Below are positions 37,575-53,687 of a DNA stretch of 64,000 nt, one piece after another. The translations under genes and the position numbers were made by a program. Positions within the stretch are counted from its first letter, which is position 1; every line of letters begins with the position of its first letter. Location: assembly GCF_005937185.1 (NCBI RefSeq), contig NZ_VCNI01000002.1, positions 806,001 to 870,000 of the forward strand, written 5' to 3'. The DNA comes from Flagellimonas algicola (lineage in GTDB: Bacteria > Bacteroidota > Bacteroidia > Flavobacteriales > Flavobacteriaceae). The notes below the pieces were generated by a model. That model made no database searches. It was not told where the DNA came from and was given only the letters and a program-made list of their open reading frames with translations.

Positions 37575-38816
37575 TTAAGTCATCAATTCATCAAAAACTT
37601 CTGCAAATCTTTCGCCAATTATCTTATAAGTGCAATTTGCGATCAAATATTCATAACCTCGGTTCCCATAAGAGTTGCGGCCATCTTTCCCCATTCCAAT
37701 AAAATAGTCAATTTTTTCCTTCAATTCTACATCATTTTCAGGCTCCACCACATAACCAGAATTAGAATAGGTAACAGGGTTTTCAGATGAGTTAAGCGCT
37801 TGAATAATGGGTTTTTTGGCGAAAAAGTAGTCAAAGGTCTTTAATTGTGAAGTCCCAAATTTGTAAATGGTGGTGTTTTTGGTTCCCTTACCCATAAACA
37901 ATAAATCCATTTGACTTAAAAAGGATTGAACATATTTTTTGGGTATTCTATCCAACACATGGATATTTGGGTAGTCCTTCCCAAGTTTTACAATCCGTTC
38001 TTTCTCTGGACCACCCCCCAATATAAAAAGGTTAATCTGTTTATTTTCATGATTCCCTACCACCTGAATTATTGTATCCAAAGGGTTGGCTACAACCAAG
38101 GTGCCAGCATAGCCAATATTAAAATCATTGGTATTAATCGAAGTGTCGCAAACATCTGAAAGTTCCAGTTTCCGTGAGCTTGAAGGGATTTTAAACCCGT
38201 TGGTAATCCACCGGAATTTAAATTTTTCATGTGTTAGAACCTCCTTGATATGTATGTCAGCCCGCGGGATTACCGATATAATAAAATCCGCATTTTGATA
38301 CGCCTTCTTTTCTAAGTATGATAAAAATCCTATAAAAGCATTCCGCTTTGAATAATTACCTAATTCTATTGCCGATAATGGCCATAAATCCCTGATTTCA
38401 AATACTATTTTCACCTTCCTATAAAATAGGGCCTTGAATAAAATGACATTCAAAATTGGCAACAAAGGCAATGAGGAAAGCACAATAATATCTGGGCGTG
38501 GAATTTTATTTCTAGAAATCAAAGGCAGACACATTAGCTGAATTACAAATACTATCCAGCTAATAATACGCCCCAAGCCTTGTGATTTCCCATATTTATT
38601 ACCCTTTAACACAAGCGTACGGACATCCTTATTTACAAGTTTATAAAGTCCTTTTATTTTAGTATGCCTATAGGGCGCATGCGAAAAAGATGAAGTGATC
38701 AAAGTGGTATCATATCCTTTTTCAGCCAGTTCTTTCGCTACATAATAGTGTCTATAACCATCACCTTCGATATCGGGACTGGTAATGTACTGGTTTATTA
38801 TCCAAACTTGCTTCAT
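37575..38816 (-). CDS. Glycosyltransferase family 4 (WbuB-like)
   Basis: 413 aa, GT-B fold. N-terminal VWIINQYITSPDIEGDGYRH, EIRDLWPLSAIELG in the acceptor domain, and NIGYAGTL plus the ILGGGPEKERI and MGKGTKN regions in the donor domain, as in WbuB-type N-acetylhexosaminyl transferases. The last family Glu motif is weak. One-base overlap with lhgO (ATG/TAA). Acts on the growing lipid-linked repeat unit; linkage unknown. Confidence 0.87.
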   Translation of the reverse strand: MKQVWIINQYITSPDIEGDGYRHYYVAKELAEKGYDTTLITSSFSHAPYRHTKIKGLYKLVNKDVRTLVLKGNKYGKSQGLGRIISWIVFVIQLMCLPLISRNKIPRPDIIVLSSLPLLPILNVILFKALFYRKVKIVFEIRDLWPLSAIELGNYSKRNAFIGFLSYLEKKAYQNADFIISVIPRADIHIKEVLTHEKFKFRWITNGFKIPSSSRKLELSDVCDTSINTNDFNIGYAGTLVVANPLDTIIQVVGNHENKQINLFILGGGPEKERIVKLGKDYPNIHVLDRIPKKYVQSFLSQMDLLFMGKGTKNTTIYKFGTSQLKTFDYFFAKKPIIQALNSSENPVTYSNSGYVVEPENDVELKEKIDYFIGMGKDGRNSYGNRGYEYLIANCTYKIIGERFAEVFDELMT

Positions 38817-40012
38817 TAGAAGTTTTTAGAAATTTTATCAGCAATAGTTTTTCCAATTTGCAATGATGAGGTAGCTGCAGGAGATGGGGCATTGACAACA
38901 TGAACCGCATCATCAGAATAATCAACCATAAAATCATCCACTAGATTTCCTTTATTGTCACAAAGTTGAGCCCTTACCCCTGAGCTTCCAACAATTAAAT
39001 CCGATTCTTCAATTTCTGGAATTAGTCTTTTCAAAGCTCGCACAAATGCTCGTTTTGAAAAAGATCTGTACATTTCATACAAGCCCACTTGCCAATATTT
39101 CAATGCGACTTTGATAAACCCGATGTATGATATACTCTCTAAAAATTCACTTATGTTGGCTTGATATTTTTTATATCCTTCTCTACTAAATGCCAGTACT
39201 GCATTCGGGCCTGCGTCAATCTCTCCAGTAATTCTTCTGGTAAAATGAACTCCCAAAAACGGAAATGCAGGGTTGGGTACAGGGTAAACCAAATTTTTGA
39301 CCAAATACTTTTTTTCTTCTTTTAACAAGTAGTACTCCCCTCTAAAAGGAATTATTTTTGCTTTCAGCCCAACACGGCTTTTTTGAGCAATTTTATCGGA
39401 ATAGAGTCCGGCACAATTTATTAGAAGTCTGGATTTAACAATCTTGGTATCGCATTTAATAATATACCCATTTTGGCCTTTGTCAATTGTTTTTACCGTC
39501 TGGTTAAAGCTAAATACTACACCTTGTTGAATTAATAGTTTTTCCAAACACTTCGCTACATCTTTATAACTTACAATCCCGGATTGCGGAACATATATTG
39601 CCTTTATTCCAACTACGTGAGGTTCTATATTCTTAATATCTTCAGGATCCAATATCTTTAACCCTTTCAATCCATTCTGTTGCCCCCGACGGTAAATTTC
39701 CATCAATCTGGACTCCTCGTCCTGGCTAGTTGCAACAATCAATTTCCCGCAGATATCATGTTCTATTCCATGTTTCTTACAAAAAGAAACCATCAACTCA
39801 TATCCTTTTTTACAATTGATTGCCTTAGAACTTCCGGGTGTATAGTAGATTCCGGAATGTATTACACCACTATTTCTTCCTGTCTGATGACTTGCCACAA
39901 TTGACTCTTTTTCAATAATTGCAATGGAAAGCCCAGGCCGTTCCAATAACAAATTATGCGCAACAGAGAGCCCAACAATTCCTGCTCCAATTACAGCAAC
40001 ATCATAATTCAT
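38816..40012 (-). CDS. lhgO: L-2-hydroxyglutarate oxidase
   Basis: 398 aa FAD enzyme. FAD motif GAGIVGLS (residues 9-16), HQTGRNSGVIHSGIYYTPGS (about 42-61), PFRGEYYLL, PVPNPAFPFLGVHFTR and GPNAVLAFSREGY are strong LhgO signatures. It oxidises L-2-hydroxyglutarate to 2-oxoglutarate and passes electrons to quinone. Unusual place: embedded in a glycan operon, overlapping the 3-aminotransferase by 11 nt and the GT4 by one base. It probably recycles the 2-hydroxyglutarate produced by the WlbA-type dehydrogenase (see findings). Confidence 0.92.
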   Translation of the reverse strand: MNYDVAVIGAGIVGLSVAHNLLLERPGLSIAIIEKESIVASHQTGRNSGVIHSGIYYTPGSSKAINCKKGYELMVSFCKKHGIEHDICGKLIVATSQDEESRLMEIYRRGQQNGLKGLKILDPEDIKNIEPHVVGIKAIYVPQSGIVSYKDVAKCLEKLLIQQGVVFSFNQTVKTIDKGQNGYIIKCDTKIVKSRLLINCAGLYSDKIAQKSRVGLKAKIIPFRGEYYLLKEEKKYLVKNLVYPVPNPAFPFLGVHFTRRITGEIDAGPNAVLAFSREGYKKYQANISEFLESISYIGFIKVALKYWQVGLYEMYRSFSKRAFVRALKRLIPEIEESDLIVGSSGVRAQLCDNKGNLVDDFMVDYSDDAVHVVNAPSPAATSSLQIGKTIADKISKNF

Positions 40013-41111
40013 GTTCCGAAAAATAATCTCTAATAGCCTTTACAACTGTATCCGCATCCTTGATAGTCAAGTGTTCTCCTATAGGTAGGCTTAGCAGTTC
40101 TGAATCTGTTTTATTGGCAAAGAACCCTTCTGAGGCCGAGTCAAGGTATTCATATGCCTTTAATTTAGGTAACGAAATTGGATAGTGAACACCACATTGA
40201 ATATTTCTTTCCAACAAAAAAGTCTTTAACTGGTCCCTTGAATTGGTTCTAATCACAAAAAGATGGTACACCTGACGTGCCCATTTCTCTCTTTTTGGAA
40301 GTTTCAAATTGTGAATCCCATCCAATTCCTTTAAATAATAGTCTGCAATTGCGATTCTTTGTTTAGTCCAATCTTCAAGATATTTGAGCTTCACATTTAA
40401 TATGGCAGCCTGTAAATTATCCAACCTACTATTCCTGCCTTCAAAAACATGGTTGTATTTTTCTATCCGACCGTGGTTCGCAATCATCCTTGTTTTTTTG
40501 GCTAAGTGCACATTATTTGTAATTATGGCGCCAGCATCCCCATATGCTCCTAAATTTTTACCTGGATAAAAGCTGAAGGTACCTATATCACCTATTGCAC
40601 CAACCCTTTTCCCTTTATACTCTGCTGCATGTGCTTGTGCACAATCCTCAATGATATAGATGTTTTTTTCCTTTGCCAAACTCAACAATTCATCCATATC
40701 ACAGGGATGGCCATACAAATGAACAGCGAGAATAGCTTTGGTTTTACTAGTTAATTTTTGTTTAAGGCTTGCGATTGAAATTGTATAATTATTAGGGTCA
40801 CAATCGCAAAAAACTACCTTATGGCCAGATCTAGTCACTGCCTCCGAGCTAGCTATAAAACTGTTAGCGGGAACAATAATTTCTGATTTAGCAGGTAACT
40901 CAAGCGCTTCTATAGCTATCTCAAGTGCATCAGTTCCATTTGCGACTCCTATACAATGTTCGGCTCCTTGGAATTGTGCAAAATCCTCTTCCAGTTTTTT
41001 TATTTCCTCTCCTCCAATGAAAGAAGACTTGGATATCACACTTTCAATGGCTGAGTCCACCTCTCCTTTTATGCTGTTATACTGACCTACTAAATCCAGA
41101 AATTTTATCAT
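40002..41111 (-). CDS. DegT/DnrJ/EryC1-type 3-keto-sugar aminotransferase (WbpE/FdtB-like)
   Basis: 369 aa PLP enzyme. PLP lysine is Lys185 in FYPGKNLGAYGDAGA, with ANGTDALEIA (phosphate binding) and the EDCAQAHAAEYKGKRVG segment. The sequence resembles 3-aminotransferases such as FdtB/WbpE more than 4-aminotransferases. With the WlbA-type dehydrogenase and the hexapeptide acetyltransferase it would install a 3-amino, then 3-acylamino group on a UDP-uronic acid. Glutamate is the usual amino donor, giving 2-oxoglutarate. Confidence 0.9.
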   Translation of the reverse strand: MIKFLDLVGQYNSIKGEVDSAIESVISKSSFIGGEEIKKLEEDFAQFQGAEHCIGVANGTDALEIAIEALELPAKSEIIVPANSFIASSEAVTRSGHKVVFCDCDPNNYTISIASLKQKLTSKTKAILAVHLYGHPCDMDELLSLAKEKNIYIIEDCAQAHAAEYKGKRVGAIGDIGTFSFYPGKNLGAYGDAGAIITNNVHLAKKTRMIANHGRIEKYNHVFEGRNSRLDNLQAAILNVKLKYLEDWTKQRIAIADYYLKELDGIHNLKLPKREKWARQVYHLFVIRTNSRDQLKTFLLERNIQCGVHYPISLPKLKAYEYLDSASEGFFANKTDSELLSLPIGEHLTIKDADTVVKAIRDYFSEHEL

Positions 41112-41113
41112 TA

Positions 41114-41566
41114 TTATTTAATCTTAACAGCAGGATTCCCTGCATATACTCCACTTTTTTTGATATTTTTAGTTACCACTGCACCGGCACCAATTACCAC
41201 GTTATCGCAAATCGACACTGGCAGTATAGTACAATTTGACCCAATGGAAACGTTGTTTCCAATTACTGTTGATTTCCATTTTGAGGTATCACCGCCGGCC
41301 GGACCCCCATCAGAAAACAGATCATTTATGAAAACGACTCCGTGTCCAATAAAGCAATCATCGCCAATTGTTACCAATTCGCAAATAAAACTATGTGACT
41401 GTACCCTGGTGCGATTGCCTATGATGACATCTTTCTGGATTTCAACAAAAGGGCCGACAAAACAATCATTTCCTATTTTACAGCCATAAATATTAACCGG
41501 CTCCACAACTTTCACATTAGAACCAAATGCTGTATCAACTATGCCGACTGTTAGTTTTTTATACAT
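41114..41566 (-). CDS. Hexapeptide-repeat N-acetyltransferase (WbpD/WlbB-like)
   Basis: 150 aa left-handed beta-helix protein. Repeats run through most of the length (IGNDCFVGPFVEIQ, IGNRTRVQSHSFI, IGDDCFIGHGVVF, IGNNVSIGSNCTILP, IGAGAVVT). The size and the SDGGPAGGD insertion near the middle fit sugar 3-N-acyltransferases. Uses acetyl-CoA. Overlaps the WlbA-type gene by 8 nt and precedes the aminotransferase by 2 nt, so all three are translated together. Confidence 0.88.
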   Translation of the reverse strand: MYKKLTVGIVDTAFGSNVKVVEPVNIYGCKIGNDCFVGPFVEIQKDVIIGNRTRVQSHSFICELVTIGDDCFIGHGVVFINDLFSDGGPAGGDTSKWKSTVIGNNVSIGSNCTILPVSICDNVVIGAGAVVTKNIKKSGVYAGNPAVKIK

Positions 41567-42584
41567 TTTGATTTCTATTTCCTATTTGTTGATATATCTT
41601 ATCTATTATTTCTACTGTTTTTAGTCCTTCAAAACCGTTGGCAGAAATTACGCCATCATTGGTTAATACCTGAACCACATTTTCATACACCTTGTCATGG
41701 TTGGACATGGAACCTTGGTATTTTCCATAATTGTTCGCCGTGTTTCCTTTGGGCAAATCTTTGATTTCCACGCCTTCTATTTTTTGATATTCCAATTCAT
41801 TTAAATATTGGCCCCCAATTTTTACAGTTCCTTTCTCTCCAAAGATTGTCAAGGATCCTTCCATGTTCCCTTCAAAACAATTCACCGTATAATTAATAGT
41901 ACCCAATGCACCATTGTAAAACTCAAGAGCTATTACACCATTGTCATCGAACTCCACAATTCCCTGATGATTGAAATTACCCCCGAAAGCTTTGACAGAT
42001 TTTACATCCCCTATCATCCAATACAATAAGTCAATAAAATGACTAAATTGTGTGTAGAGTGTCCCTCCATCCAAATCTAGAGTGCCTTTCCAAGAGTTCT
42101 TATAATAATCAGGGTTTCTGTTCCAAAAGCAGTTTAATTGAATAGAGTAAATTCTACCTAACTTGTCATTTTCGATAAGTTTTTTGACAGCCTCAACTGG
42201 GGGATTAAATCTATTTTGCTTAACAATCATCAATCGTCTATTGGCTGAATCAGCAGCCTTGATCATCTCACCACAGTCATGTACTGAAATTGCCATCGGT
42301 TTTTCACATAGAACATGAAATCCCATTCGCAAAGCCATTATAGAATGACTTGCGTGTAATCCATTTGGAGTACATATGGCCACCAAGTCTATATCGCCTT
42401 CAAGTTTTAACAAAGTATCAATGTCATAGTAGGCTTTAGCGTCATGTTTTTCAGCTAATTGATCCGCTTTATCTTTTTCGATATCACAGACCGCAATAAG
42501 TTTTCCATTCTTGACAATATGACCGGCATGTCTTTCGCCAATCCTACCACAGCCCACTATGGCAAAATTCAACTGTTTATTCAT
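41559..42584 (-). CDS. wlbA: WlbA/WbpB-like UDP-sugar 3-dehydrogenase (Gfo/Idh/MocA family)
   Basis: 341 aa. Rossmann motif VGCGRIGERHAGHI (residues 9-22), the Lys-Pro motif CEKPMA (about 93-98), and the WlbA-type stretch VKQNRFNPPVEAV, FWNRNPDYYKNSW and LDGGTLYTQFSHFID. WlbA/WbpB oxidise C3 of UDP-N-acetylglucosaminuronate and regenerate tightly bound NAD with 2-oxoglutarate. UDP-GlcNAc 6-dehydrogenase, which would make the substrate, is not in the window. Starts the wlbA-wbpD-wbpE-lhgO block. Confidence 0.88.
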   Translation of the reverse strand: MNKQLNFAIVGCGRIGERHAGHIVKNGKLIAVCDIEKDKADQLAEKHDAKAYYDIDTLLKLEGDIDLVAICTPNGLHASHSIMALRMGFHVLCEKPMAISVHDCGEMIKAADSANRRLMIVKQNRFNPPVEAVKKLIENDKLGRIYSIQLNCFWNRNPDYYKNSWKGTLDLDGGTLYTQFSHFIDLLYWMIGDVKSVKAFGGNFNHQGIVEFDDNGVIALEFYNGALGTINYTVNCFEGNMEGSLTIFGEKGTVKIGGQYLNELEYQKIEGVEIKDLPKGNTANNYGKYQGSMSNHDKVYENVVQVLTNDGVISANGFEGLKTVEIIDKIYQQIGNRNQNV

Positions 42585-48516: not shown

Positions 48517-49221
48517 TTATTGGTTAAGAGCCCTTACAAATTCTTTGGTTTCCAACAATTTCTCGGCAATCATCCAATCCAATGGGGTGTCCAGGTCCAA
48601 GGAGTTTACATCTTCCATGACATACTTCTTGATCTTTTGGAAATTCAAGATACTGCTCTTCCGTAAAGATTCTGTGTTAATGATATAAATAGCCCCATTG
48701 TATTCCCAGACTTGCGGACAATCTTGTCTTCTGGTAAAGTCTCCGGATTTGCTTTTTACCAACCATCCATTATTGTCTTCCTCAAATAGTACGTAATATG
48801 GGTTGGATTTTGTCTCCTTAACTGAAACAAGCATGTCCATCTCATCGTCAAAGAGCTTCAAAGCTTCTAAGATATGTTTCGCACCGCGAAATGGTGATGT
48901 TGCCTGAAGTATTATTACAACTTCAGGCGAGTACCCTTTTTTTTCATAAAATTCCAGCGCATGTATCAACACGTCGTACGTACTTGCAGTATCCGTCGCG
49001 AGTTCGTCTGGTCTAAGAAACGGCACTTCCAGGCCATTTTTCTCAGCAACATTCTTTATTTCAACAGAATCAGTAGATATACAAATTTGTTCAATAGGAA
49101 AGACTTCTTTCGCTGCATCCAAAGTGTATTCAATCAAGGGTTTTCCCTTAAGCTTTTTAATATTCTTATTGGGAATCCCTTTTGATCCCCCTCTCACCGG
49201 TATTACAACAAGTGGTTTCAT
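48517..49221 (-). CDS. CMP-nonulosonate synthetase (NeuA/LegF/PseF-type cytidylyltransferase)
   Basis: 234 aa. N-terminal VIPVRGGSKGIPNKNIKKLK (residues 5-24) is the CTP-binding P-loop of the family; LQATSPFRGAKHI and ADELAT-type segment RPDELATDTASTYDV follow. Length matches LegF/PseF, shorter than NeuA with an esterase tail. It activates an eight- or nine-carbon keto acid with CTP. Ends 12 nt before the transferase start and begins 9 nt after gmd. Confidence 0.9.
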   Translation of the reverse strand: MKPLVVIPVRGGSKGIPNKNIKKLKGKPLIEYTLDAAKEVFPIEQICISTDSVEIKNVAEKNGLEVPFLRPDELATDTASTYDVLIHALEFYEKKGYSPEVVIILQATSPFRGAKHILEALKLFDDEMDMLVSVKETKSNPYYVLFEEDNNGWLVKSKSGDFTRRQDCPQVWEYNGAIYIINTESLRKSSILNFQKIKKYVMEDVNSLDLDTPLDWMIAEKLLETKEFVRALNQ

Positions 49222-49230
49222 AAATACACG

Positions 49231-50265
49231 TTATACCTCAGACAACTCGTACTTCATCATTATATCCACGAGTTCCTCAAACTTCACTTTAGCTTCCCAG
49301 TTCAGTTTCTCTTTTGCTTTGGTGGCATCGCCAATTAATATGTCCACCTCGGTTGGCCTAAAATAATATGGGTCTATTGTCACTAGGATTTCTTCCGTGT
49401 TTTTATCATAACCCACCTCATCAATCCCTTCACCTTTCCACACAATATCTATGTCGATATATTTAAAGGCTCTTTCCACAAATTCCCTTACTGTGTTTGT
49501 CTCACCGGTAGCAATAACAAAATCCTCGGCAACATCCTGCTGTAGCATTAACCACATGGCTTCAACATAGTCCTTTGCATATCCCCAATCTCTCTTTGCA
49601 TCCAAGTTGCCCAAACGTATTTTAGAAAGCTTCCCTTCTTTGATTTTGGAAACTGATTCCGCTATTTTTTTTGTTACAAAACTATTTCCCCTTCTTGGAC
49701 TTTCATGATTGAATAAAATTCCATTGCACGCAAAAATATTATACGCCTCTCGGTAATTTACCGTTAGCCAATATGAATAAAGTTTTGCTACTCCATATGG
49801 GCTTCTTGGATAAAATGGTGTGGTTTCTTTTTGTGGTATTTCTTGAACTTTTCCATAGAGTTCACTAGTGGAGGCTTGATAATACTTGGTTTTCCTCTCC
49901 AGCCCTAGAATACGTATTGCCTCAAGTATTCTAAGACTCCCCAAGGCATCGGCGTTCGCTGTATATTCCGGAATATCAAAAGATATTCTAACATGGCTCT
50001 GGGCGGCCAAGTTATAAATCTCGTCTGGCCTTATTTGCTGTAATAAACGCATAATGTTGGATGAATCCGTCATATCCCCGTAGTGTACATGAAAGTCTAA
50101 TTCATGGGCATCAACTCCCTTGTACAAATGATCTATTCTTAGTTTTTGTTCTAAGCTGGATCTTCTCACCATTCCGTGAACTTCATATCCCTTCTCCAAT
50201 AAAAATTCGGCCAAGTAGCTCCCATCCTGACCTGTAACTCCAGTTATTAATGCTTTCTTCTTCAC
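49231..50265 (-). CDS. gmd: GDP-mannose 4,6-dehydratase
   Basis: 344 aa SDR. Strong Gmd signature set: [13 protein letters not shown] (residues 8-20), [37 protein letters not shown] (Tyr-x3-Lys), [19 protein letters not shown] and [19 protein letters not shown]. It makes GDP-4-keto-6-deoxy-mannose. No GDP-fucose synthase is beside it; the neighbour is a perosamine-synthase-like aminotransferase. GTG start, fixed by family N-terminus. Placed in the middle of the NeuB/NeuA module. Confidence 0.96.
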
Positions 50266-50267
50266 AA

Positions 50268-51359
50268 TTATTTAATGTTGTTTTTGATTATTTCAATGAT
50301 TTGTTCTTGCTGTTCAAATTGTAGTCCAGGATAGCTTGGTAAATTTAGTCCCAAAGCAGAAATCCTCTTTGCATTTGGACAGTCTTCCACCTCATCGTAA
50401 AATGGTAATTCATCGATTGGGGTGAAAAAAGGTCTAGTTTCAATGTTGGCCGAATTTAATGCGGACTCAATTTTAAGTTTTTCATCAATTGAATTAAACA
50501 GTACCGAGCACATCCAATAAGATGATGTTGAGTGTTCTGGCAATTTCTGAAAAGTCAGAACATCTGACAAGGCTTTTTCATAGTTGTTTTGTAAAACACG
50601 TTTAAGGCCCAAGATTTCTTCTAGCTTGCCTAACTGTCCAAGTCCAATGGCCGCCTGTATATTTGTCATTCGATAATTATATCCAAGAACATCATGGTAA
50701 TATCTTCTGGTTTCAGAGTTGCCTTGATTCTTAAGTTTCCTTATTTTCTTGTTCAATTCGTCGTGAGGTGTCAATACCATTCCTCCTTCTCCAGTGGTTA
50801 TGGTTTTGTTTCCAAAAAAAGAGAATGTCGACACATCACCCAAAACCCCAGACATCTTTCCATGATAACTGGCACCAAATGATTCCGCAGCATCCTCAAT
50901 CAAAAATACACCATGCTCTTTTGCAATGCGTTTCAATTCGTTATATTCTGAAGGACATCCATAAATATTAGTATAGAGAATGGCCTTGGTTTTTGATGTA
51001 ATCTTCTCCGTGATTTTATTCGTGTCAATATTCCAACTTTCAGAATCAACATCTACAAATACTGGGTGGGCCCCTACATACAAAATAGCGTTGGTACTTG
51101 CCACATATGTAAAATTGGTGGTTATTACTTCATCTCCTTCGCCGATGTCCAAAGCCAACATGGCCAAATGGATTGCAACCGTTCCATTACTAACGGCAAT
51201 AGCATGTTTTGCTCCAGTATATTTTCCAACTTCTTGCTCGAAACTATTTATGAATTTACCTTGACTTGAAATCCAGGTGGAGTCCATGCATTCTGCAACC
51301 AATTTCTGTTCTTCGGCTCCTAAAAATGGCTGATATATTGGTATTTTACTGTTTGCCAT
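50268..51359 (-). CDS. GDP-perosamine synthase-like aminotransferase
   Basis: 363 aa, DegT family, PLP lysine Lys185 in [48 protein letters not shown] and [14 protein letters not shown] are close to perosamine synthase (Per/RfbE) as I know it. Substrate would be GDP-4-keto-6-deoxy-mannose from the adjacent gmd, giving GDP-perosamine (4-amino-4,6-dideoxy-mannose). Overlaps the GNAT-TIM gene by 14 nt; 2 nt before gmd. Confidence 0.9.
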
Positions 51360-52641
51360 AAGTTCTTAAAAGTCCAAGCTGTTTATTAATTTGATTTAAT
51401 GTGATGTTTTTTACTTCCAGGACATGGATGCAATCTGGAAAGTGTTTTAACCATGGTAAAAACCAATACGAGTCGTCAATGCTTTCATTGGTATCCCGGT
51501 TCCCGTCATTATCACTATGATGAATGTACCTCACATAAGGTTTAACTTTCTCAACAGCATTATTTAATTCAAAGTTCAACGCATTTGCGGACACTTTCAA
51601 ATGTGCGGTATCCAAAAGAAGCCCAAAACTTTCAGAGTTTATTTCTTCAAACAACCTTACCATTTCCTGAGGCCTTGAACACAAAAGCATCTCTATTCCA
51701 TCATTTCTTAGGTTAAAACTGGCGGTCACGTTGTTTTCAACATAAAAAGAAAGACCTAGACGTTCGGCTTCGTCCAAAACAATTTTGACAGAGTTTATAA
51801 AATGTGACCAATTCTCCTCCCTGTTCACGGGAACATCGATATTAAGCTTTTTGCCCAGTTGATCGGGCTGAGGGTCTACGCAAAATCCTGCATGAGCAGA
51901 AAAACATGGCGCTCCTGCCTTTTTGGATAATCTCAAACCCGAAATACAATGTAATATGGAACGTTCCCTTATTTCAGCATTACTACTTCCAAGGTTGAGT
52001 ACGAAGGGTTCGGAAGGAGCAGGAAAATAGTTGTGTGCCAACCTTTTAATGTCACAATTAACAAAGAATTCCCCCATGTCACTTTGAAATGGAAAGCTAG
52101 AACTAAATTCAATCGTAAGTTCCTCTTCCCTGGAAATTGAAACAATTTCTTCCCTGCTATTTTTACCAAATGCCAAGGTGCTTACACCAATAGTGTTGGC
52201 GAAAGAGTTGGCATTTATATCTATTCTAAATATAGAATAGGTGTTTTCCTGCAAAATTAATTTGAAGCCAAAACCTTTATAAAGTTTGATTGCCTTAAAA
52301 TTATCATTGTCAACAGACAACTGAATGGCTCCAACTCCCAGTTGCGTTGCTTTATCTAACAATATTTGTATTATCCTTTTACCTAAACCAAGTCCTTGAA
52401 AAGAACTCTTAACTACTATCCCTAGCCAGATGGTGTCATTTTCCTTGTCCAAATGTCCATAACCCATTGTTTCATTATCCTTTCTTAATAACAGGGTACA
52501 CAGATGGTTATTTAAAACCTCCTTACCCCTTTTGTTGAAATAACGAAAAGAGTTTTTCTCATCATCCAAGCTTTCAATGAAAGATTCGAGGATAGTATAA
52601 TTTTTATTTGATATCTCTAATACTTCAAGTTCTACTCCCAT
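51346..52641 (-). CDS. GNAT acetyltransferase fused to an AP-endonuclease-2/xylose-isomerase-type TIM barrel
   Basis: 431 aa bifunctional protein. Residues about 5-140 are a GNAT domain with the acetyl-CoA loop QGLGLG (82-87) and the DNDNFKAIKLYKGFGF helix. Residues 150-431 are a TIM barrel of the sugar-isomerase/endonuclease IV superfamily, with candidate metal ligands His250 (SAHAGFC), Glu302 (YVENN), Asp344 and His347 (LLDTAHLKV), His374/375 and Asp377/379 (YIHHSDNDG), and Glu409 (VLEVK). It overlaps neuB by 10 nt and the aminotransferase by 14 nt. Proposed job: N-acylate the 4-amino sugar, then free or isomerise it for NeuB. The fusion is unusual. Confidence 0.85.
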   Translation of the reverse strand: MGVELEVLEISNKNYTILESFIESLDDEKNSFRYFNKRGKEVLNNHLCTLLLRKDNETMGYGHLDKENDTIWLGIVVKSSFQGLGLGKRIIQILLDKATQLGVGAIQLSVDNDNFKAIKLYKGFGFKLILQENTYSIFRIDINANSFANTIGVSTLAFGKNSREEIVSISREEELTIEFSSSFPFQSDMGEFFVNCDIKRLAHNYFPAPSEPFVLNLGSSNAEIRERSILHCISGLRLSKKAGAPCFSAHAGFCVDPQPDQLGKKLNIDVPVNREENWSHFINSVKIVLDEAERLGLSFYVENNVTASFNLRNDGIEMLLCSRPQEMVRLFEEINSESFGLLLDTAHLKVSANALNFELNNAVEKVKPYVRYIHHSDNDGNRDTNESIDDSYWFLPWLKHFPDCIHVLEVKNITLNQINKQLGLLRTYGKQ

Positions 52642-53687
52642 ACTATCATGCTTTCCTTCAAAGGCACATCTTGTGGGATATCTTCACTAGCCTTTTTACC
52701 AACAATATCATTTTTCCTCTTAGGATTTAATCCCGTTGCTGGTCTTTTAAAAGCAATATTTTCCGACGTAATTCTCTGCCCCTCTTTAATTTCCTTTTTC
52801 AGAACTATACTCCTTCTCATTCCCTCAGTATTGGCAATTTCCTTTTCAGAAGGTCTTTTTACCGGGCTTCCCAATGCTATTTCCGTCTTTCGAATGCCTT
52901 CTATTAAATTTTGGAACTGATCAACGTTCAATGAAGCCTTATGGTCGGGCCCTGGAAGATTACGGTCTAGTGTAAAATGCTTTTCAATAATTTTAGCTCC
53001 TAAAGAAACAGCGGCATAACAGGCATAATTCTCTTCAATATGGTCAGAATAGCCAAAAATTGTATCTAAGGCTACTCCCATTGAAATCATCGCCCTAATA
53101 TTGGCATCTCTGTTTAACGATGGATAGTTGGTTGTACATTGCAGTACTGCAATTTGTTCGTTTCCTGTGGATCTAATTGTATTCACAGCATCCGAAACTT
53201 CAGCTAAGGTTGACATGCCCGTTGATAAAATGATTGGTTTGTTAAACTTAGCGACATGTTCTAAAAATGATAATTCCACAATCTGGCCTGACGCTATTTT
53301 AAAGGCTGGTACATTAAGCTTGTTTAAAAAATCAGCATCGTCCTCATTGTAAGGAGTAGAAAGAAATGTAATCCCCAGATTATTGCACTCTTCGATAATC
53401 GCTGTATAGTCGTTCTCAGTCAATTCTAGTTTTTTCAGCATTTCAAATTGGCTTTCAGCTTTGTCCGTTACTTCAAGCTGGTATTTTGCTTTAGGAGCAT
53501 CTTTTGTGATTACACTTTCTGCTTTAAAAGTTTGAAACTTGATACAATCAACACCAATTTTTTTAGCCGCTCTTACAAGATTAAGCGCCATTTGTAAGTC
53601 GCCGTTGTGGTTAACACCAGCCTCAGCAATTATATAGCAGCTACTATTATTGCCAATAGTAAAATCACCGATACGAAATGAGTTCAT
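52632..53687 (-). CDS. neuB: Nonulosonic acid synthase (NeuB/LegI/PseI-type)
   Basis: 351 aa. TIM barrel with AEAGVNHNGD (residues 21-30), KFQTFKAES, ILSTGMSTLAEV and IEKHFTLDRNLPGPDHKASL, and a C-terminal SAF antifreeze-like domain from about 290. Condenses phosphoenolpyruvate with a six-carbon aldose to a nine-carbon 2-keto-3-deoxy acid. Which aldose is used cannot be told by eye. First gene of the module; 95-nt A/T-rich gap separates it from wzz. Confidence 0.93.
   Translation of the reverse strand: MNSFRIGDFTIGNNSSCYIIAEAGVNHNGDLQMALNLVRAAKKIGVDCIKFQTFKAESVITKDAPKAKYQLEVTDKAESQFEMLKKLELTENDYTAIIEECNNLGITFLSTPYNEDDADFLNKLNVPAFKIASGQIVELSFLEHVAKFNKPIILSTGMSTLAEVSDAVNTIRSTGNEQIAVLQCTTNYPSLNRDANIRAMISMGVALDTIFGYSDHIEENYACYAAVSLGAKIIEKHFTLDRNLPGPDHKASLNVDQFQNLIEGIRKTEIALGSPVKRPSEKEIANTEGMRRSIVLKKEIKEGQRITSENIAFKRPATGLNPKRKNDIVGKKASEDIPQDVPLKESMIVWE

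Follow-up and report, generated by a model that had tools for sequence, protein, structure and literature searches.

A candidate route from GDP-mannose to a nonulosonic acid in Flagellimonas algicola, with a TIM barrel in the place of the known hydrolases

Nonulosonic acids are made from UDP-N-acetylglucosamine (UDP-GlcNAc) or GDP-GlcNAc in the pathways described in the available excerpts of three papers, with NeuC, LegG or PseG as the hydrolase (PMC7439481, PMC7371886, PMC3438082). A stretch of 64,000 nucleotides from Flagellimonas algicola (contig NZ_VCNI01000002.1, positions 806,001 to 870,000; hereafter, the window) raises the question of how such an acid might be made with other genes: an operon on its minus strand holds neuB, a gene for a GNAT–TIM fusion protein, an aminotransferase gene, gmd and a CMP-nonulosonate synthetase gene. 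We favour, with moderate confidence, the reading that these five genes build one CMP-nonulosonic acid from GDP-mannose, with the TIM barrel of the fusion replacing NeuC, LegG or PseG. The observations behind it are the identities of the genes, the conservation of the set, the lack of matches to the known hydrolases and the linkage to gmd and manC. A preliminary description of this DNA had read the five genes as overlapping or tightly spaced, and their open reading frames (Table 1) bear this out, with spacings of −10, −14, +2 and +9 bases between them and +12 bases to the gene for a 454-residue protein that follows.

The dehydratase, called Gmd in that description, is confirmed as such: it exceeds the TIGR01472 cut-off by 164 bits and scores 111.1 bits with the LegB model, whose cut-off is 475, and these scores rule out a mis-called LegB. 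The aminotransferase does not reach the cut-off of any of the 25 listed NCBIfam models, with 359.5 bits for LegC (cut-off 420) and 272.6 bits for PseC (cut-off 423.5), too few for a PseC assignment; its nearest solved protein is the Caulobacter perosamine synthetase, at 302 bits. The fusion protein consists of an N-acetyltransferase at approximately residues 1–145 and a xylose-isomerase-like TIM barrel at residues 148–431, the latter scoring 59.4 bits with Pfam PF01261, above the gathering score of 31.1. The synthase reaches 426.1 bits with TIGR03569 (cut-off 399.65) and stays below the PseI cut-off for pseudaminic acid synthases (297.4 bits against 340.25); the cytidylyltransferase is nearest to PseF among the NCBIfam models, at 155 bits with a cut-off of 205.7. 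A NeuB-family synthase and a CMP synthetase stand together at the locus, the general mark of a nonulosonic-acid pathway.

In the pathway that we predict, Gmd would convert GDP-mannose to GDP-4-keto-6-deoxy-mannose, the aminotransferase would form GDP-perosamine (4-amino-4,6-dideoxy-mannose) from it, and the GNAT half of the fusion would acylate N4. The TIM half, as a metal-dependent barrel in the superfamily of xylose isomerase and endonuclease IV, would then remove GDP in place of NeuC, LegG or PseG. NeuB would join the resulting 4-acylamino-4,6-dideoxy-mannose with phosphoenolpyruvate to give 7-acylamino-3,7,9-trideoxy-D-glycero-D-galacto-nonulosonate, with a hydroxyl at C5, and the CMP synthetase would activate this acid to its CMP form. 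We infer from the genes each of these reactions, the metal involved, which bond is cut, and the identity and stereochemistry of the product. The preliminary description had assigned no role to the TIM domain, and the hydrolase role is an addition of this analysis. That description had recognised no gene of the NeuC/LegG/PseG type, which holds for the whole of the window's own genome (G000, 4.54 Mb): searches with the NeuC model TIGR03568 at E 1e-40 and with the PseG model TIGR03590 at E 1e-15 returned no match, and LegB, the legionaminic dehydratase, returned none at E 1e-70. We take LegG to fall within TIGR03568, which also gave no match at E 1e-40 in two other genomes that carry the gene set (G279 and G437).

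The gene set is a widespread family that spans several phyla and extends beyond one genome. Relatives of the fusion were found in the window's own genome alone among 148 near-kin genomes, and in 4 of 395 genomes in a search of the phylum (the own genome counted), one of these (G510) through the GNAT part alone; phage records gave no match. A search for the same five-gene order, suggested in the preliminary description, succeeds in G279, where the fusion is 61% identical and the order is that of the window. On a Balneola contig (G437; its loci L008 and L045 are one contig), gmd, neuB, GNAT, TIM, aminotransferase and CMP synthetase occur in a rearranged set with GNAT and TIM as separate genes. 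Because the order recurs in the first genome and the set recurs, split and reordered, in the second, the genes are not together by chance, and reordered sets across other families and phyla likewise rule out chance clustering.

A scan of genome contigs with an alignment of the TIM domain confirmed 135 places. The locus counts rest on the best 80 of these 135 and on profiles built in this analysis, with many loci clipped by contig ends. The loci belong to Bacteroidota, Pseudomonadota (SAR11, Methylophilaceae and others), Prochlorococcus, Lysinibacillus, Arcobacter, Deferribacterales and more. neuB lies within 5 kb of the TIM domain in 75 of the 80 loci, and in all 46 for which both 5-kb flanks are present. 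The same distance takes in a CMP synthetase in 61 loci, an aminotransferase of at least 340 residues in 68, and an acyltransferase in 65 (37 GNAT, 12 of them fused to TIM, 25 PglD-like and 3 formyltransferases); this exchange of acetyl-, other acyl- and formyltransferases in one slot fits the N-acylation of a 4-amino sugar. gmd is within 5 kb in 19 of the 80 loci and neuC in one.

Does gmd belong to the set when it is local in 19 loci? Whole-genome tests covered 50 of the 80 loci, picked by no written rule after the gene maps and before the genome results, the omitted loci being mostly short stretches and near-copies; G000, G279 and G437 were joined later to give 53 genomes. gmd is present in 45 of the 50 (44 over the cut-off), as compared with 124 of 198 Bacteroidota genomes (p 1.4e-4), a baseline of genomes at least 90% complete, with incomplete genomes and other phyla included on the TIM side. 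Leaving out the 17 genomes with a local gmd gives 28 of 33 (p 0.016), and the Bacteroidota-only subset of the TIM genomes gives 29 of 31. The position of gmd differs with the presence of GDP-fucose synthase: among the 47 gmd-positive genomes of the 53 (a partial match in G567 excluded), gmd lies within 5 kb of the TIM domain in 9 of the 10 that lack a match to GDP-fucose synthase and in 11 of the 37 that have one (p 0.0009). Where no fucose synthesis is there to share gmd, the gene thus tends to be housed in the TIM locus. The window's genome has a single gmd match at E 1e-60 and no match to GDP-fucose synthase in a search that was positive in 39 of the 53 genomes, which rules out a gmd serving fucose there. 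Enrichment in TIM genomes, and locality where GDP-fucose synthase finds no match, support the view that gmd is part of the set. Weighing on the other side, the 50 genomes are not a blind draw and favour gmd, since they contain 17 of the 19 local-gmd loci and the 30 omitted loci contain 2, and gmd has no match in five of them (G536, G541, G576, G579 and G583), with G567 as a sixth, partial case.

The single path from GDP-mannose put forward in the preliminary description thus stands in part: the genes travel as a set to which gmd belongs, and its 5-hydroxyl product meets opposition in the active site of NeuB. Arg314 of meningococcal NeuB contacts and positions the 2-N-acetyl group of N-acetylmannosamine, according to the available part of the source (PMC6795526), and this arginine is retained in all 76 TIM-linked NeuBs examined; the window's NeuB has it. 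Its retention implies either that the window-type NeuB binds another group there, for example the 4-acylamino group, or that the sugar carries a 2-acylamino group after all. At the Glu134 position the window's NeuB has Gln, and Gln or Asp is found in 70 of the 76; we dropped this residue as proof of substrate, its role not having been looked up. Three loci (L052, L068 and L089) have a NeuC-like gene beside an additional NeuB, which departs from its TIM-linked counterpart at two active-site positions, with Glu, at the Glu134 position, and Lys in the NeuC-linked copies versus Gln or Asp and Arg in the TIM-linked ones.

A sugar with a 2-acetamido group would make the TIM domain the hydrolase of a legionaminic-type route, in which an unlinked dehydratase supplies UDP- or GDP-4-keto-6-deoxy-GlcNAc, the TIM domain inverts C2 as well, and gmd works for a different glycan. 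We regard this as unlikely, while noting that several findings beyond Arg314 lean towards it and away from GDP-mannose. The window's aminotransferase comes within sight of the LegC cut-off and its group falls near LegC-context proteins, on long branches in a quick tree; one PF02719 dehydratase is encoded in the window's genome outside the operon; and some TIM loci share genes of the acetamidino type. On a Planctomycetes contig (L056/L098), a TIM locus has LegB near neuB and TIM together with a QdtB-like aminotransferase. NeuC finds no match in that genome, and the TIM domain may substitute for LegG there with a GlcNAc-derived sugar too; L056, L069 and L074 have a different short-chain dehydrogenase/reductase gene and a different aminotransferase group. 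What speaks against a 2-acetamido sugar in the window is the gmd inside the operon, single in its genome and unaccompanied by a GDP-fucose synthase match, and the distribution of dehydratases. PF02719 hexosamine dehydratases (E 1e-70) occur in 36 of the 53 genomes and LegB in 5 (4 over the cut-off); 15 have neither, 12 of these have gmd, and some of the genomes are incomplete.

Turning to the TIM domain itself, our alignment of the TIM family (A2) has 73 rows, one for the window and 72 for loci of the scan, 8 of whose 80 loci were left out. Twenty residues are invariant in all 73 rows, a set of putative metal ligands among them; they include His56, His103, Glu155, Asp197, His200, His227, Asp236 and Glu262, and the family has invariant motifs of its own (HNYFPxP, ENN and others). 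Profile alignment with hhalign relates the domain to Escherichia coli endonuclease IV (Nfo) at E 3e-6, a phosphodiesterase with nine zinc ligands. Seven of these nine ligands are identical in the alignment (H109, E145, D179, H182, H216, D229 and E261); at the H231 position 71 of the 73 rows have Asn and 2 have His, and H69 is unaligned, though the invariant His56 is nearby. The seven matched positions make a phosphoester-cutting metal site plausible, in a fold that also allows an epimerase.

An isomerase or epimerase acting on a free or phosphorylated sugar, with a Nudix or phosphatase enzyme encoded elsewhere removing GDP, is the other role to weigh, and it finds its backing in structure. The best Foldseek matches to the AlphaFold model are sugar epimerases of the D-tagatose/D-allulose 3-epimerase-like type and not hydrolases, which counts against the GDP-removing role, with endonuclease IV close behind; an Azospirillum relative of the domain is annotated as a sugar phosphate isomerase/epimerase. 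We nevertheless consider this role quite improbable, as a route through gmd would leave a hydrolysis step to be filled and none for an isomerase. NeuC occurs in 11 of the 53 TIM genomes and PseG over its cut-off in 4, in 39 neither is found over cut-off, and the positions that align with the endonuclease IV ligands are invariant.

The role of the TIM domain can also be approached through proteins of 616–784 residues that join it directly to NeuB. Pfam finds NeuB, SAF and PF01261 in the three such fusions scanned, and CBS in one as well, and their TIM domain is homologous to that of the window family (hhalign probability 98.4, E 8.5e-15). The Arg314 position is Ser, Thr or Ala in all 10 NeuB–TIM fusions, a loss that agrees with a 5-hydroxyl product there. 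A CMP synthetase stands beside the fusion in 8 of the 10 loci. manC is over its cut-off in three, adjoining in L111 and L112 and separated by a single gene in L101, and a divergent gmd-like gene below the cut-off of 415 bits adjoins in three (L115, L116 and L117, at 305, 250 and, clipped by the contig end, 112 bits). The last three loci have no aminotransferase match in the fetched stretch, and their product is perhaps a 9-deoxy form of ketodeoxynononic acid (KDN) derived from 6-deoxy-mannose. In 6 of the 10 loci either manC or a gmd-like gene is thus nearby, a count made without a control set of other neuB loci, and the fusions also speak against a 2-acetamido sugar.

Such an enzyme has been tied to KDN in print. 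In the available excerpt of a study of Serratia marcescens KL1 and KL2, the named sialic acid genes encode NeuA and a NeuB that carries an additional COG1082 domain, the capsule contains KDN with about one twentieth N-acetylneuraminic acid, and deletion of neuB lowers the sialic acid signal to approximately one quarter and abolishes the capsule (PMC9000132). A family tied to neuB, with kin fused to NeuB elsewhere and such a NeuB linked to KDN, makes the TIM half of the window's fusion the probable missing hydrolase. Several features of the fusions temper this. Glu155 is replaced by Gln in 9 of the 10; in a merged alignment the His103 column is without His in all 10, with a His one residue off in L110; of the three loci with manC, L111 and L112 look like near relatives; and we infer that the Serratia domain belongs to the same TIM family from the length of its gene (2241 bp) and the name of the domain.

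It is highly improbable that the operon holds two pathways, with Gmd, aminotransferase and GNAT feeding a GDP-N-acyl-perosamine transferase and with NeuB and NeuA drawing on a sugar that is imported or made by another route. In its favour, glycans built from GDP-perosamine are well known in general, and L009 has a GNAT relative beside a perosamine-type aminotransferase and a gmd-like gene (334 bits, cut-off 415), the fetched stretch of 19.5 kb being free of neuB. Against it, the window, like 12 of the 80 loci, has GNAT and TIM in one protein, TIM occurs with neuB in 75 of the 80, and gmd, aminotransferase and neuB remain together through rearrangement.

Beyond the single CMP-nonulosonic acid proposed for the window, we see nearly even chances for a broader scheme, a second, widespread nonulosonic-acid branch rooted in GDP-mannose, in which a hydrolase built as a TIM barrel, unlike the GT-B type of NeuC, LegG and PseG, would free manno-sugars from GDP. 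These would be mannose in the NeuB–TIM fusion loci, giving KDN by a route with no phosphate intermediates, and, in the window family, 4-acylamino-4,6-dideoxy-mannose, leading to 7-acylamino-9-deoxy-KDN, in Bacteroidota, SAR11, Prochlorococcus and others. In animals KDN is made from mannose 6-phosphate, according to the available part of PMC13214540. The open-licence literature searched yielded no description of 7-acylamino-9-deoxy-KDN, and the sole trideoxy-nonulosonate in the available part of PMC7371886 has nitrogen at C5, the opposite arrangement to that of our predicted product. We found no open-licence paper that links NeuB with GDP-perosamine and, judging mostly from listings, none that tests the role of the TIM domain. 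The one paper found to combine KDN, GDP-mannose and NeuB deals, going by its title, with sialyllactose synthesis. If the scheme is true, many environmental NeuB loci that would be annotated as sialic or legionaminic make another sugar from another starting material, a new class of nucleotide-sugar hydrolase exists, and nonulosonate synthesis without NeuC, LegG or PseG is explained, along with a bacterial KDN route from GDP-mannose. It would also predict a mass detectable with 1,2-diamino-4,5-methylenedioxybenzene, within reach of existing sialic-acid screens; for an N-acetyl product, C11H19NO8 (293.111), the calculated [M+H]+ of the labelled acid is 410.156, and for the N-formyl form 396.14.

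Four known systems resemble parts of the operon. The Campylobacter jejuni CMP-legionaminic route (LegB, LegC, LegH, LegG, LegI and LegF) shares with it the use of a 4,6-dehydratase, a C4 aminotransferase, an N-acyltransferase, a NeuB-family synthase and a CMP synthetase and, as predicted here, GDP-linked intermediates; the window differs in having gmd for LegB, a TIM barrel for the NeuC-type hydrolase and a predicted C5 hydroxyl instead of nitrogen. The route to GDP-perosamine and N-acetylperosamine (Gmd, RfbE/Per and an N-acyltransferase) is matched by a Gmd over its cut-off and an aminotransferase nearest to 3bn1, whereas the window's product would be hydrolysed and given to NeuB and not transferred as GDP-perosamine. 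The Serratia system, compared by description and not by sequence, shares a NeuB with a TIM-type domain, a 5-hydroxyl nonulosonate and, in the available excerpt, the naming of no NeuC; its gene is fused, and the excerpt names no dehydratase, aminotransferase or acyltransferase (PMC9000132). Endonuclease IV and the xylose-isomerase-like superfamily (PF01261) are alike in fold and in the seven identical positions, whereas the window's TIM domain is linked to neuB and not to DNA repair and has its own invariant residues.

The aminotransferases of the TIM loci fall into two size classes, of approximately 360–380 residues (12 loci, 8 with a local gmd) and longer, mostly 470–490 residues (56 loci, 11 with a local gmd; p 0.002). 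In the quick tree, which was drawn open, the Caulobacter perosamine synthetase is placed among the long forms with a support of 93, and it is the nearest solved protein to one long form, at 366 bits. We dropped this tree as proof of a perosamine synthase in view of weak support, long branches and the quick method. The one long form scanned with Pfam, a perosamine-type enzyme in L033 (10818–12272), starts with a CBS domain. A CBS domain also starts the NeuB–TIM fusion of L101 (9824–12178), and most TIM-locus aminotransferases have extra length; nucleotide sensing in these pathways is a possible role for the CBS domain and the extra length.

Table 1 Features of the putative nonulosonic-acid operon, in window coordinates
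Feature	Coordinates	Strand	Evidence and notes
neuB-like nonulosonate synthase, NeuB and SAF domains, 351 residues	52632..53687	-	PF03102 305.7 bits
GNAT–TIM fusion, 431 residues; putative GDP-sugar hydrolase	51346..52641	-	PF00583 GNAT and PF01261 TIM barrel
TIM-barrel domain, basis of family alignment A2 and of the structure model	51349..52200	-	AlphaFold mean predicted local distance difference test (pLDDT) 97.1
DegT/DnrJ aminotransferase, perosamine-synthase-like, 363 residues	50268..51359	-	nearest solved protein 3bn1
gmd, GDP-mannose 4,6-dehydratase, 344 residues, GTG start	49231..50265	-	TIGR01472 579.3 bits, cut-off 415
CMP-nonulosonate cytidylyltransferase, 234 residues	48517..49221	-	PF02348 91.8 bits
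putative transferase, 454 residues	47140..48504	-	no Pfam match

The 454-residue protein encoded next to the five genes is a possible CMP-nonulosonate transferase. Among the TIM loci fetched, 11 others contain jackhmmer relatives of it above 200 bits (L006, L025, L033, L034, L035, L037, L042, L043, L065, L076 and L084).

The operon lies within a polysaccharide region (36–54 kb) with a G+C content of 0.33–0.38, as against 0.39–0.44 in the rest of the window. Elsewhere in this region, a second aminotransferase (40002–41111), a NeuD-like hexapeptide transferase (41114–41566) and a Gfo/Idh/MocA dehydrogenase (41559–42584; 117 bits to UDP-GlcNAc 3-dehydrogenase, cut-off 450) form a trio at 40002–42584 that reads like a module for a 3-acylamino sugar of the UDP-GlcNAc3NAcA type. 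The gene at 38816–40012 looks, from a reading of its sequence alone, like an FAD-dependent enzyme of the L-2-hydroxyglutarate oxidase type.

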